DNA of 64,000 nt from Ferrovum sp. (GCA_010435995.1 JAAGNR010000066.1:1-64000); one strand, 5' to 3'; shown: positions 4,618 through 9,356, counted from the stretch's first letter. Notes: a model not told the origin generated them from the letters alone. Numbers and translations: made by a program.

Positions 4618-5424
4618 TCAGCCATGTAAATAAATCACCTTGAACCATAAACTCGTGGCAACTCCGAAGCATAACAAGGAAAACAATCTGCGCATATAAA
4701 TTTCACTGATGTGATGTGCCTGACTTCTCCCCACATAGATACCCATCAAGACCCCCCCCAGGAAAGGCCAGGTCAATGACCAGTCAACATCCCCCACTAC
4801 CGCCCACTGAAGGACCCCCCCCAGGGAAACAATGGTCAACACCATCAATGAGGTCGCAGTAACACTATGCATGGACAAAGGGGTATGGCGCCGCAATGCT
4901 GGAACCAGCACAAATCCTCCTCCCACGCCAAGCAATCCCGAAAGAAATCCCGTAGTCGCTCCCATACGCACCATGGCCTGAAAACAGGACGCATTCCAGA
5001 CAAACCGCCCGGTAATCGGATCAAGGGAACAGGGAGAGTCCCGATCCTGTCCCTGGTTCGGAGGCTTCCAGTAACGCCAACCTTGGTAAATCAGCACCAG
5101 AGCGAATGCTAGAAGCATCGGCGCATTGGGAATTATTCGCGCCAATCCGATCCCCAGGGGCGAAGTCATTAAACCCAGCAGGGACAGCAACAACGCCGCA
5201 CGGTACCTTACGATGCCCTGCCGCAAACCCATCCACGCCCCCAACCCTGCACCCACACTTACCGCCAACAAAGATACGGGCGAAGCTTCGTTAACCGATT
5301 GGTGCATAATAAGAATCAACAGAGGGGACGCAATCATCCCCCCACCTGCTCCTGTCAACCCCAATAACAAACCTGTCAAACCACCCAAAAAAAAGGGAAG
5401 AACCACGACCAAGCCCCTAAGCAT
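4618..5424 (-). CDS. TSUP (TauE/SafE) family anion exporter
   Basis: This is a 268-residue, highly hydrophobic protein with about eight predicted membrane segments in two halves. Each half opens with the family's Gly-rich motif: GLTGLLLGLTGAGGGMIASPLL near residues 14-35 and GFLSGLLGVGGGFVLVPAL near residues 158-176. TSUP permeases move sulfite, sulfoacetate or related organosulfur anions across the inner membrane. The substrate cannot be read from sequence, although SulP further along the window hints at sulfur-anion traffic. ATG 5424 lacks an obvious Shine-Dalgarno; GTG at 5406 with AGGGG upstream is an alternative. The 3' end runs into the start region of the GGDEF-EAL gene. Confidence 0.85.
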   Translation of the reverse strand: MLRGLVVVLPFFLGGLTGLLLGLTGAGGGMIASPLLILIMHQSVNEASPVSLLAVSVGAGLGAWMGLRQGIVRYRAALLLSLLGLMTSPLGIGLARIIPNAPMLLAFALVLIYQGWRYWKPPNQGQDRDSPCSLDPITGRFVWNASCFQAMVRMGATTGFLSGLLGVGGGFVLVPALRRHTPLSMHSVTATSLMVLTIVSLGGVLQWAVVGDVDWSLTWPFLGGVLMGIYVGRSQAHHISEIYMRRLFSLLCFGVATSLWFKVIYLHG

Positions 5425-5469: not shown

Positions 5470-5859
5470 TCAAAAGCCGGTTACGCGCATATATTCCGCC
5501 AAGGTGGCCCAGAAAAGCATCGCACAAGCAGGAATCACTCCTGGAAGGAGTGGTCCGGGCCAGAATATCGCCAGAGCACCGCAGAAGGTCAAGATTTTTA
5601 CCCCGCGCTTCAACAGAACCATACGCTGCCAGCGATACCATTCGTCCGCTACTGATTCGCCTTTTTTCTGCCAGAATCGCCTCATCCCTAGGGGGAAAAA
5701 CACCATAAACCATGCGCCCCAAGACAACAGACGAAACAAGGATCGCCCCATAAGTGGGGAATCCGTCATAGAAAGCACCTTGGATGCCGAATATAAGACG
5801 AATTCACCGCCCCAAAGCGCTTGATCTTGCATCATCTCCAAACCCCATGGAAGCCACAT
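5470..5859 (-). CDS. Small membrane protein downstream of traD-like gene
   Basis: The product is 129 residues with two to three likely membrane helices (LFRLLSWGAWFMVFFPLGM near 41-59; VKILTFCGALAIFWPGPLLPGVIPACAMLFWATL near 87-120). The segments are separated by a basic, Trp-rich loop. It begins 11 bp after the stop of the TraD-like gene with GGGAA about 6 nt before its ATG, so it is very probably the last gene of that operon. In SXT-type ICEs a small membrane protein gene also follows traD, but I see no diagnostic residues and do not assign homology. Function unknown. Confidence 0.6.
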   Translation of the reverse strand: MWLPWGLEMMQDQALWGGEFVLYSASKVLSMTDSPLMGRSLFRLLSWGAWFMVFFPLGMRRFWQKKGESVADEWYRWQRMVLLKRGVKILTFCGALAIFWPGPLLPGVIPACAMLFWATLAEYMRVTGF

Positions 5860-5870
5860 CTCATTTCCCT

Positions 5871-7496
5871 TTAAAAATCGCTATGTCGCACCCACGGTAG
5901 TCGCCCAACCACCAAACCACGCCCAGCAAAATATCCCACAAAGTGACGGTCTTGCATTTGACTCAAGAGGGCCTCAGGGATCAACGTCACTTCCTGTAAG
6001 GGACGCGCAATGGACGCCCCATGACCGTGGCGATTGAGCCACCCCACCCCCTGCTGCGCCTGTACCGAGGCCCCTGACTGGCGCACGCGAAGCAATACCT
6101 TACCCGCCCGTTCTACCAAAATTGTTCGGGAATCCGGGTCCAATGTACGCAATACCAACAGGTGGGCCGCATTACCCACCATCATTCGCGCTTCTGCTGG
6201 GCCTCGAAGTGCCACTTCCAGATCAGCCAACGTCTGCAAAGCCAGGGTTACCTGCAGACCACATTCACGCCCTTTATTCAGCAACTGCACGAAGGCTCCT
6301 CCAGAAACTTCAGCCGCTTCATCCACAAACACTTGAATCTTAGCCCCCTTTCCCAGCCCCTGACGATAACGGTCGCCCATCCAGGCCGCCAGATCTGCCA
6401 GCAATAACGCCCCTAACGCTTGGGCCACACGCACATCGGACAAAGCCCCCAAGCCCACATATAAAATCCCTCTCTGGGCCACGAGTTCTTCCACTGTCAA
6501 AAATGGCTTGGTCACCTCTTGGGGGCGTGTCAATAATTCCCCTAAAACACCCGTCGCCAAAATGTCCAGTAGCGGCATCAATGCCAAAATCATTTTGGAA
6601 TAATGCACTGACTCATGATTGGCCAAATCACGGATCCCTGCCAGCACTTGTGGTTCGACCTGAGGATGACGCAGCAACATACCGAACAGCGCTTTCCCCT
6701 GATCCAGAATATGCGCACGCAACTGCGGAAAATTGAGGGAATCGCCTAACCATAATTGGGCATTGATCACGCGATAGAGCGTCATCCAAGCAAATTGGGA
6801 AAACACGGTTCCCTGCTCCGCCGGGGGGAGCAACAGGGAAATGCGACTGGCCAACTCTGATGCGTGCCGACCATGGGCCAGCAAATCAAATGAACAACTT
6901 TCCTGTGGCTGGGCAACCACCAACTGATAGTAGGGTCGGCGGGTCAACTCGGACACCTCACGCAACGCCCTAGGCAAGGTGGTTCCCCCTTTGGGATCCA
7001 AAACCAGGACGATGTCGCCACGCGCAATGGCCTGCACTGCAAACAGCAAAAACGCCTGAGTTTTTCCCGATCCTGGTGCCCCCAATATCAACATGTTTCC
7101 GCGCGGTTCAAGGGGGATCTCCAAACGATGATGAAGCCACTGAGTATCCCGCATTCCCTGCATTGGATCCTGTGCCCCTCGCTCCATGAAGCGCTGCAGC
7201 AAATCCTTATTCCAATCGCCTCCCCATCCAAGCCACAGTTTCCCCCCATGGGGATGCATCCTTGACAGCAGTTGCCGGATGGTCAGTGAAGAAGAACCCG
7301 CGCGCCGCCACAGAAAATCTTTGCGCGTCAAAAATTCCAGCGCCATCAAAAAATTTAGACCATACCCCCATAATTCCCGAGTAAAGGAGCCATCCAAACC
7401 CAGCCATCGAGACAGCACCAACATCGCGATGGCCATGAAACTCCAATGCGCCACCCAAGTCAGGGTTGAGCGAGGGGCACTATTCCAGTTCACCAT
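5871..7496 (-). CDS. TraD-type (SXT/PFGI-like) conjugative coupling ATPase
   Basis: Two N-terminal membrane helices lead into a VirD4/TraD motor domain. Walker A is GAPGSGKT (about residues 139-146), followed by LVLDPKGG. Walker B is VFVDEAAE (about 389-396), followed by FVQLLNKGRECGLQVTLALQT, then DLEVALRG and VGNAAHLLVLR. That order matches the SXT/ICE TraD family, which has DE-x-NE, LINKGGGAGVQVTAYTQT and GN-x-NNLIMLR at equivalent places. The family couples relaxase-DNA complexes to a type IV secretion channel. All ATPase motifs look intact. The ORF track start (7724) would overlap the upstream gene by 235 nt; ATG 7496 overlaps its stop by only 7 nt and leaves a normal N-terminus (541 residues). 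No other transfer-channel gene is visible in the window. Confidence 0.82.
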   Translation of the reverse strand: MVNWNSAPRSTLTWVAHWSFMAIAMLVLSRWLGLDGSFTRELWGYGLNFLMALEFLTRKDFLWRRAGSSSLTIRQLLSRMHPHGGKLWLGWGGDWNKDLLQRFMERGAQDPMQGMRDTQWLHHRLEIPLEPRGNMLILGAPGSGKTQAFLLFAVQAIARGDIVLVLDPKGGTTLPRALREVSELTRRPYYQLVVAQPQESCSFDLLAHGRHASELASRISLLLPPAEQGTVFSQFAWMTLYRVINAQLWLGDSLNFPQLRAHILDQGKALFGMLLRHPQVEPQVLAGIRDLANHESVHYSKMILALMPLLDILATGVLGELLTRPQEVTKPFLTVEELVAQRGILYVGLGALSDVRVAQALGALLLADLAAWMGDRYRQGLGKGAKIQVFVDEAAEVSGGAFVQLLNKGRECGLQVTLALQTLADLEVALRGPAEARMMVGNAAHLLVLRTLDPDSRTILVERAGKVLLRVRQSGASVQAQQGVGWLNRHGHGASIARPLQEVTLIPEALLSQMQDRHFVGYFAGRGLVVGRLPWVRHSDF

Positions 7497-8398
7497 GATA
7501 AGCGCTTGTCCAACCATTGCTGCAAGCCGCAGCCAACTCTTACCCCAGCCACCGAGCGGTGAAATACCGGATGATGAATTCTCTCGATATCTCCGCTCAC
7601 CACGAGTTCCGCCATGCGCAAATTCTGCAGTCCTTGCTCCGGCGATAATGCCGGATAATGAGGCCACAATCGACACATTTCCCGGCAGATGTCTGCCACC
7701 GCCAAGGGATAAAGAAACATCCACCCCAGATCATCACGCCATAACTGCCCCGGTTTTTCGCCTACCCGCCAAACTCTGCGCTCCAGCAATGAATGTAGTG
7801 CCCGAAGGGTGGGTTCATGATGCGGCATTACAGCAACTTCGTTAGGCTTGTGCACAGTCAAATTTGGTACCGCACCCGATACGCCTAAAGATTCCAGATG
7901 GTGCCAAGCCTCCCCCGCCAAAATGCGTCCTGCAAGACAGGCTGGGGTTAACCAATACCCAGGGGGCCGAGGTTGCGGTTCGAGCATAACTCGTGTCGCA
8001 TGCATGCCCTCACTCCATCGAGTCAAACCAGAGCCAAACCCTCCCCAATAAACCGCATCATCGGGGGCAGAAACTTTCCAGAACAGAATCCCTGTATGTA
8101 GGGTTTCCACTAAGATAGCCAAGATCCTGGACAACTTGAGGGACCCGTCAACTTCATCCCGTACCCCTGACTGAGCCTTTTCTACGGCCTGATACAAGAG
8201 CCATGAACTGACATCCGATGAAATCGTCCTCTCTTCGATGGGAGCGGGCAAATTCATCACCCAACGGGTCATGCGCTGCAATGACGCATGGAGAACGCTC
8301 TCCAGATTCTGCGCGGGAAGATGACGCGCCAGTCGCACGAATGCGGGGCGCAAACAGGCCCCACATTCGTGCTCCGTGAGCAAAGTCCACGGCGTCAT
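7490..8398 (-). CDS. Probable degenerate MobH/TraI_2 relaxase-like protein
   Basis: The product is 302 residues. I compare it from memory with the TraI_2 (MobH relaxase) domain. The helix leading to LPAxxxxHHH..GGL..H..E corresponds here to RWVMNLPAPIEERTISSDVSSWLLYQAVEKAQ (about residues 45-76), and the HD-type LAALLHDxGK corresponds to ILAILVETLHTGILFWKV (about 92-109). The following W..xxGSLTxW corresponds to YWGGFGSGLTRW. The helices and the LP, W and G..LT.W landmarks are kept, but the histidine cluster and the His-Asp pair are gone, so nickase or metal-dependent activity is not expected. The start at 8398 forms an ATGA overlap with the flhC-like stop. The position before traD matches traI in SXT-like elements. 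Homology is inferred by eye; it could be an unrelated protein. Confidence 0.5.
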   Translation of the reverse strand: MTPWTLLTEHECGACLRPAFVRLARHLPAQNLESVLHASLQRMTRWVMNLPAPIEERTISSDVSSWLLYQAVEKAQSGVRDEVDGSLKLSRILAILVETLHTGILFWKVSAPDDAVYWGGFGSGLTRWSEGMHATRVMLEPQPRPPGYWLTPACLAGRILAGEAWHHLESLGVSGAVPNLTVHKPNEVAVMPHHEPTLRALHSLLERRVWRVGEKPGQLWRDDLGWMFLYPLAVADICREMCRLWPHYPALSPEQGLQNLRMAELVVSGDIERIHHPVFHRSVAGVRVGCGLQQWLDKRLSW

Positions 8399-8952
8399 AC
8401 ATAAGCCTGATAGGAGGATATACGACCCGCATCCGCATGTGACTTTTTGCCGATGGAGGAACGACACTCAGGACAACGATAACTATGACGAACACGTGCC
8501 CAGGGTTGCAGATACCGTGCCTGGCAACCCAGACAACGACATTGCTGCAAGTTCTTTATTTTGAGCGACTTCACCAACCACCATGCACGATCCAGAGTGA
8601 GTTGCGGACTCAGTCCACAGGATTGAATCCAACATCGCCATTGAATATACCCTTCGACAAGTAAGGTACAATCGTCGACAGATTCTTCCGTGACCTTCTC
8701 AAGACGTTGGTATATCTGGCAAAACAAAGAAGATTGGAGTAGATTTTTGCGCCGCAGATACCACTGATCCGAGTTGGGAATCTGCCCCTTGCTCGGAGCT
8801 TTGCCATTAATTTCCAGGGATAACTTGCGCAAGAACCAACTGGACAAGTGTGTCATGTCCATGACCACCGGAACCCGCGCACCCAAGCTCAACAATTTTT
8901 CGGCTTGACGATAACGAAAAATTTCCTGCTGCAAATCGCGCTTAGTGGACAT
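8395..8952 (-). CDS. FlhC-like (SetC/AcaC-type) transcription activator subunit
   Basis: The product is 185 residues. It aligns over its length with FlhC: the N-terminal AEKLLSLGARVPVV (FlhC: AMELITLGARLQML), SSWFLRKLSLEINGKAPSKGQIP (FlhC: [22 protein letters not shown]), LTLDRAWWLVKSL, and two zinc-binding pairs CLGC and CPEC near the C-terminus. FlhC binds zinc and forms a heteromer with FlhD that activates sigma-70 promoters. Paralogues SetC and AcaC do the same for conjugation genes in SXT ICEs and IncC plasmids. The start at 8952 has GGAGA 8 nt upstream and overlaps the flhD-like gene by 11 nt. Being co-operonic with traI/traD-like genes favours a transfer-type role over flagellar control, though flagellar genes may lie elsewhere. 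Confidence 0.85.
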   Translation of the reverse strand: MSTKRDLQQEIFRYRQAEKLLSLGARVPVVMDMTHLSSWFLRKLSLEINGKAPSKGQIPNSDQWYLRRKNLLQSSLFCQIYQRLEKVTEESVDDCTLLVEGYIQWRCWIQSCGLSPQLTLDRAWWLVKSLKIKNLQQCRCLGCQARYLQPWARVRHSYRCPECRSSIGKKSHADAGRISSYQAYV

Positions 8953-9250
8953 GATCGTACTCTCCTTCGCCCAATAACAGCGCCCTGGGCAAAGCAGTAT
9001 CTGTCCCCGTAGCATACTGACTCAAACATTCCCAGACCCGCGCCGAATGCCAGCGCAACCCCACCAGCAATACCGGTGATTGCGCCAGATGGCTTAATTC
9101 CTGAGCTGACAAAGCGAGCAATGTATCGGCTACTTTTTGAGTGATCCCCAGATTAAGCAACCCTTGGAGACGATCCTGCTGGAGTACCTCCCGTGCCAGG
9201 TACAGCATGCCCAGATTGATTTCCGCGATGGACTTGCCAAAACGACTCAT
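8942..9250 (-). CDS. FlhD-like (SetD/AcaD-type) transcription activator subunit
   Basis: The product is 102 residues and matches FlhD strongly through its helical core. It has IAEINLGMLYLAREVLQQDR (FlhD: [20 protein letters not shown]) and LLNLGITQKVADTLLALSAQELSHLAQ (FlhD: [27 protein letters not shown]). It is slightly shorter than typical FlhD because the C-terminal tail is reduced. The ATG at 9250 has GGGAGG about 10 nt upstream. It is the first gene of a five-gene minus-strand operon (flhD-like, flhC-like, relaxase-like, traD-like, small membrane protein). The 207-bp region before it contains the dcd terminator; TATAGT near 9300 could be a -10 but has no convincing -35, as expected for an activator-dependent promoter. 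Confidence 0.85.
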   Translation of the reverse strand: MSRFGKSIAEINLGMLYLAREVLQQDRLQGLLNLGITQKVADTLLALSAQELSHLAQSPVLLVGLRWHSARVWECLSQYATGTDTALPRALLLGEGEYDHVH

Positions 9251-9356
9251 ATTGAAATTCCCTCCCTAGTGATTGTTGATCCGCGACTGCGGGAAATCAC
9301 TATAAAGGGGAATGGAAGAACAAATTCATGGCAACAGGAAACCGCTCTCCTGAAAC

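Follow-up and report, generated by a model that had tools for sequence, protein, structure and literature searches.

Ferrovum (Ferrovaceae) is an acid-mine, iron-oxidizing bacterium, and chromosomal VirB type IV secretion systems (T4SSs) exapted from conjugation exist, e.g., in Bartonella and Xanthomonas. In integrative and conjugative elements (ICEs) of the SXT/R391 group, the traIDJ operon is served by the activator SetCD (PMC4344509), whose counterpart in IncA/C is AcaCD (PMC4207636). The activator of ICEclc is BisDC, whose BisD component is ParB-like; that study detected no FlhD domain in BisD (PMC7423338). For Ferrovum itself, all genomes have been reported to carry a nearly complete VirB/D4 gene set, from which D4 is missing in F. 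myxofaciens (PMC4725956; PMC4886054) and VirB1 and VirB7 are lacking (PMC4886054). Both papers take these genes as a signature of conjugation, and a text search of either for flhD or traD gave no match.

The DNA analyzed here is a 64,000-nucleotide stretch (the window) from a draft Ferrovum sp. genome estimated to be 87% complete. Five tightly packed ORFs of 102, 185, 302, 541, and 129 aa occupy positions 5470–9250 on its minus strand, and all were found where a first-pass annotation had placed a five-gene operon. Successive ORFs overlap by 11, 4, and 7 nt, followed by an 11-nt gap ahead of the last gene, which suggests one transcription unit. From upstream to downstream the features are:

9298–9304, minus strand: TATAGTG, resembling a −10 box and lying ahead of flhDL in its gap to dcd, recognized by eye and conserved in all genera aligned
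8942–9250, minus strand: flhDL, which opens the operon, predicted FlhD-like protein of 102 aa (Pfam PF05247, 6.7e-16); adjoins dcd across Ferrovaceae
8395–8952, minus strand: flhCL, predicted FlhC-like protein of 185 aa (Pfam PF05280, 4e-27); overlaps flhDL by 11 nt
7490–8398, minus strand: mobL, 302 aa, predicted shortened and divergent TraI_2 (MOBH TraI-like) protein, from a profile match to TraI and from its fold
5871–7496, minus strand: traDL, 541 aa, predicted SXT-type TraD coupling ATPase (TrwB_AAD_bind, TraG-D_C, SXT_TraD)
5470–5859, minus strand: p129, predicted 129-aa membrane protein in the TraJ position of traIDJ (two predicted TM segments, profile matches)

Domain searches upheld the FlhD, FlhC, and TraD-like assignments of the first-pass annotation and left the 302- and 129-aa products without a match in Pfam, NCBIfam, or PHROGs. 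FlhDL (58.8 bits) and FlhCL (95.5 bits) both scored above the Pfam gathering score (cut-off 27 in each case), and an alignment of 17 FlhCL rows contains four conserved Cys near the C-terminus. TraDL matched TrwB_AAD_bind (3.4e-9) and TraG-D_C (6.2e-7) above their gathering scores, as well as the NCBIfam model SXT_TraD (TIGR03743; E = 1.6e-89) at 301 bits, under the 366-bit cut-off, and has Walker A (GAPGSGKT) and Walker B (VFVDEAAE) motifs. A p129 profile matched proteins adjoining traD in L194 and L236 (1.4e-6 and 3.2e-5, respectively). The comparison with SetCD/AcaCD and with traI-traD-small membrane protein operons, which the annotation had drawn, holds in its FlhD/FlhC domains, probable SXT-type TraD, and matching gene order.

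These features (an FlhC/FlhD-type activator, the traI-traD-small membrane protein order, and a TraD of probable SXT type) are common to SXT/R391, IncA/C, and the Ferrovum locus. Unlike those systems, Ferrovum has a regulator pair that heads the operon, a shortened TraI, and a P-type VirB pore, and its locus is without integrase, xis, or att and is chromosomally fixed across a bacterial family. With ICEclc BisDC it shares an FlhC-like activator, and FlhDL shows a weak match to DUF2857 (1.7e-5, under the cut-off); unlike BisDC, the Ferrovum pair has true PF05247 and PF05280 domains and no mobile element. As in T4SSs of the Bartonella and Xanthomonas type, the VirB apparatus has been kept vertically and a mobile element is no longer its user, whereas the FlhDC-like regulator, the TraD-type coupling protein, and the distribution of loci over three sites set Ferrovum apart.

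No integrase, tRNA, or Rfam element was seen in the window, the flanks of the operon are housekeeping genes in which no flanking repeats were found, and the GC content of the operon is that of its surroundings; the annotation had likewise seen neither integrase nor att site. Its remark that no other T4SS gene is in view is accurate for the window and wrong for the genome. Beside the operon, a TSUP (TauE) gene (window positions 4618–5424) lies 46 nt beyond the operon end; a TSUP gene also follows p129 in genomes G007 and G023 and is missing there in F. myxofaciens-like genomes. Considered as an anti-phage system, the operon gave one weak ATPase match, to mad8 (9.3e-12), which we judged generic.

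The genome encodes P-type VirB2–VirB6 and VirB8–VirB11 at two loci apart from the operon. Contig C17 carries VirB11, VirB2, VirB3, VirB4, VirB5, and VirB6 beside tldD, ilvE, and waaF genes, and contig C4 carries VirB8, VirB9, and VirB10 beside aroC and leuCD. VirB4, VirB6, VirB11, VirB8, VirB9, and VirB10 were identified by Pfam, and VirB2, VirB3, and VirB5 by family alignments (VirB3 also by Pfam in L098); no VirB1 or VirB7 was noticed. These are probably the VirB genes of the VirB/D4 T4SS described previously for Ferrovum (PMC4725956; PMC4886054). A conserved membrane protein of ∼77–87 aa ends the virB11–6 block (L104:5697–5960, L098:5576–5809, and equivalents). A genome search for F/SXT-type T4SS genes had been proposed in the annotation; for the F type, TraC alone was looked for, and its sole match was the P-type VirB4 (50 bits vs. 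a cut-off of 567). On this TraC result an F-type system was rejected; the T4SS that the genome does encode is P-type.

Both VirB loci hold the same chromosomal places in relatives, the VirB11–6 block lying between alr and waaF/ilvE in most family genomes. VirB4 relatives at at least 44% identity occur in 25 of the 32 family genomes, and VirB9 and VirB10 domains each in 30 of 32, the copies in genus g3 belonging to other elements. Genus g6 has a single cluster, flhDL-flhCL-mobL-traDL-membrane protein-virB11-virB2-virB3-virB4-virB5-virB6. TraDL is present in all eight genus genomes, at ∼44–48% identity to that of the window, and across the family it occurs in 21 of 32 genomes. Because VirD4/TraG (PF02534) was not found in the window's own genome or in G001, G002, and G005, and is absent from g6 genomes save for a partial match in G022, sequence searches of these genomes turned up no coupling protein other than TraDL. 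It is a good candidate for the D4 reported missing in F. myxofaciens. The parts of the T4SS are not strictly co-inherited, since G010 holds the VirB loci without TraDL and G013 holds VirB8–10 without TraDL and VirB4, both genomes at 99% completeness; either loss has advanced to different points in the two genomes, or the VirB proteins are used there without a coupling protein.

We consider it likely, with some room for doubt, that the operon supplies regulation and coupling for a P-type VirB T4SS that is fixed in the chromosome of Ferrovaceae, is inherited vertically, and derives from an flhDC-traI-traD-virB conjugative element. The VirB/TraD system probably works without conjugation today. 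The operon is a fixed chromosomal locus: the order apbC-dcd-flhDL-flhCL-mobL-traDL-p129, with metG divergent, recurs in genera g5, g7, and g8 and in every member of the genus whose contig reaches far enough, and g2 has the same block inverted beside dcd. In these members of the genus, the operon lies between dcd and GGDEF/TSUP genes. Synteny in related genomes, which the annotation had put forward for checking, thus places it at the same site in the genus and four other genera. Pairwise dS of the operon and VirB genes resembles that of metG, apbC, and dcd. Values of dN/dS were 0.03–0.10 for FlhDL, 0.08–0.17 for FlhCL, 0.13–0.17 for TraDL, 0.19–0.32 for MobL, and 0.03–0.34 for the VirB genes, and the reading frames of TraDL and the VirB proteins are intact in the genus. 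Core, coupling-protein, and VirB trees, in which several deep nodes are poorly supported, are congruent apart from one well supported difference inside g6. Domestication, one of the options first raised for this locus, finds support in the vertical divergence, the fixed site, and purifying selection.

Other Burkholderiales (L193, L195, L231, L233, L243) have flhDC-traI-traD(-virB) blocks with matching gene order. L195 reads flhC-traI-traD, with no VirB11–6 block in the stretch read, and L243 reads flhD-flhC-traI-traD; both encode a full-length TraI (665 and 614 aa, respectively), unlike Ferrovum MobL. Elements of the L195/L243 type resemble what the ancestor of the Ferrovaceae locus may have been. 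In genus g20 of family f13, several genomes (L193, L231, L232, L233, L245) have FlhD-FlhC-MobL-TraD-VirB11–6 between shared chromosomal neighbors, and the operon is contiguous with a VirB11–6 cluster in g6, f13 g20, and others. The FlhC ORF of f13 g20 is ∼450 aa long and by eye resembles two tandem FlhC domains, where Pfam reports one.

MOBH relaxases have a catalytic histidine/aspartate motif of the HD type. A profile of 17 MobL proteins matched full TraI proteins with hhalign probabilities of 93–97, vs. 0.6 or less for all 38 unrelated and 15 shuffled controls. The only significant PDB fold match of the MobL AlphaFold model (mean pLDDT 85.5) was 3kq5 (Foldseek, E = 3.4e-6, TM 0.46). We take this match to represent a TraI_2 domain because a five-sequence TraI profile retrieves the same entry by sequence (6e-12); a single TraI sequence searched directly against PDB found nothing. 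At ∼300 aa, MobL is about half as long as mobile TraI (614–665 aa), and the invariant columns among its 17 homologues (W118, L125, W128, W210, L229, P231, D236) include no His. PF07514 (TraI_2) gave nothing over the cut-off in the 32 family genomes and no match to the window's own MobL; its sub-threshold matches fall on mobL in G023, G027, and G031. Profile and model together identify MobL as a TraI_2 (MOBH) domain that has been shortened and has diverged. The earlier description of the 302-aa protein as relaxase-like is thus right as to its TraI_2 kinship, but what is left is a shortened relic and not a recognizable relaxase. The relaxase families covered were MOBP and MOBH, and MOBP was not found in the window's own genome, in G001, G002, and G005, or in any g6 genome. 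Given its halved length, the lack of an invariant His, the absence of PF07514 matches over the cut-off, and the absence of MOBP, nicking by MobL is unlikely.

Working conjugation would require MobL to be a divergent but active relaxase at an undiscovered oriT, with the three loci forming an Hfr-like donor apparatus. MobL is indeed under selection and adjoins its ancestral partner TraD, and TraI-like proteins of the plasmid/ICE type (L195, L196) likewise show no clear His-rich motif where they align. Against this, the reduced length and missing histidine of MobL, the PF07514 and MOBP results, and the absence of integrase and att make conjugation an unlikely present role.

FlhCL forms a clade distinct from that of the flagellar FlhC proteins in the same genomes, and the window's own genome has a separate flagellar flhDC copy on contig C41. 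Four genomes of non-motile g3 relatives, two of which are assembled into 3 and 6 contigs, keep flhDL-flhCL directly after dcd (L278, L279, L280, L281), and in these four no flagellar FlhC, TraDL, or family-type VirB block was found. The pair also stands alone after dcd in G010 (L277), which is without flagellar FlhC and TraDL and has kept its VirB loci. Because the pair persists in relatives without TraD/VirB and flagella, FlhDL/FlhCL probably have further targets beyond the T4SS. A search for k-mer dyads in three upstream regions found no consistent operator shared by the operon and the two VirB loci, the window genome's own virB11 upstream region being outside the assembly because contig C17 ends there. 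As no shared operator was found, control of the VirB loci by FlhDL/FlhCL is suggested by analogy with SetCD, AcaCD, and BisDC. The sequence AAGATACCACA lies between virB8 and a divergently oriented membrane-protein gene (L173:2061–2854; equivalents L174–L189), and nearly every genus retains it. It was not taken as an operator, since it fits an extended −10 (TGTGGTATCTT) belonging to that membrane-protein gene.

We put at about even odds the proposal that an FlhDC-type activator that came with a conjugative element has become a core chromosomal regulator in Ferrovaceae, where it controls a VirB/TraD secretion system that is dispersed and non-conjugative, together with a further regulon. If true, this would explain the survival of the pair in lineages without flagella and TraD/VirB genes. 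A different reading would make the pair a core regulator of unrelated genes, with mobL-traD-p129 as co-transcribed passengers of a decaying T4SS. It accommodates the lone pairs of g3 and G010, both without traDL, the lack of a motif in common with the VirB promoters, and the partial losses in G010 and G013, but conflicts with the intact frames and low dN/dS of TraDL and VirB in the genus and with the recurrence of the flhDC-mobL-traD-virB block in f13 g20, and we regard it as improbable.

The annotation had also raised a separate DNA-translocation device. The operon does hold just these genes in most genera, as expected if TraD, MobL, and the membrane protein worked independently of a T4SS, but with a VirB apparatus in the same genome, an operon contiguous with VirB11–6 in g6, and no competing VirD4 in the window's own genome, G001, G002, or G005, such a device is very improbable. 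Homology to SXT TraD, TraI, and FlhDC notwithstanding, an ordinary recent ICE remnant or flagellar locus fragment is scarcely credible, the former being rejected on fixed synteny, vertical divergence across genera, normal GC, and dS (and the suggested minimal remnant being at odds with a VirB T4SS at two other fixed loci), the latter by the flagellar flhDC on C41 and the distinct FlhCL clade.

In the favored reading of a regulatory and coupling module for the VirB T4SS, FlhDL and FlhCL would form a heteromeric activator of their own operon and perhaps of the VirB operons too. TraDL would recruit the substrate and, with VirB4 and VirB11, drive its passage through the VirB channel, and MobL may serve as a non-nicking adaptor aiding TraDL. 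With neither MOBP nor MOBH relaxases found in the genome, self-transfer is less likely than the export of protein, or of DNA set free without nicking at a classical oriT.

The locus would then show how a conjugative element was tamed step by step among free-living acidophiles, a course in which the relaxase was reduced and the machinery spread over three chromosomal sites, the coupling ATPase and channel stayed under selection, and the regulator outlasted the loss of the rest. The reading of Ferrovum VirB genes as a sign of active conjugation is thereby put in question. A second family (f13 g20), which shares the block and has conserved chromosomal flanks of its own, suggests that taming happened more than once, so that the move from DNA transfer to a different role in secretion can be compared.
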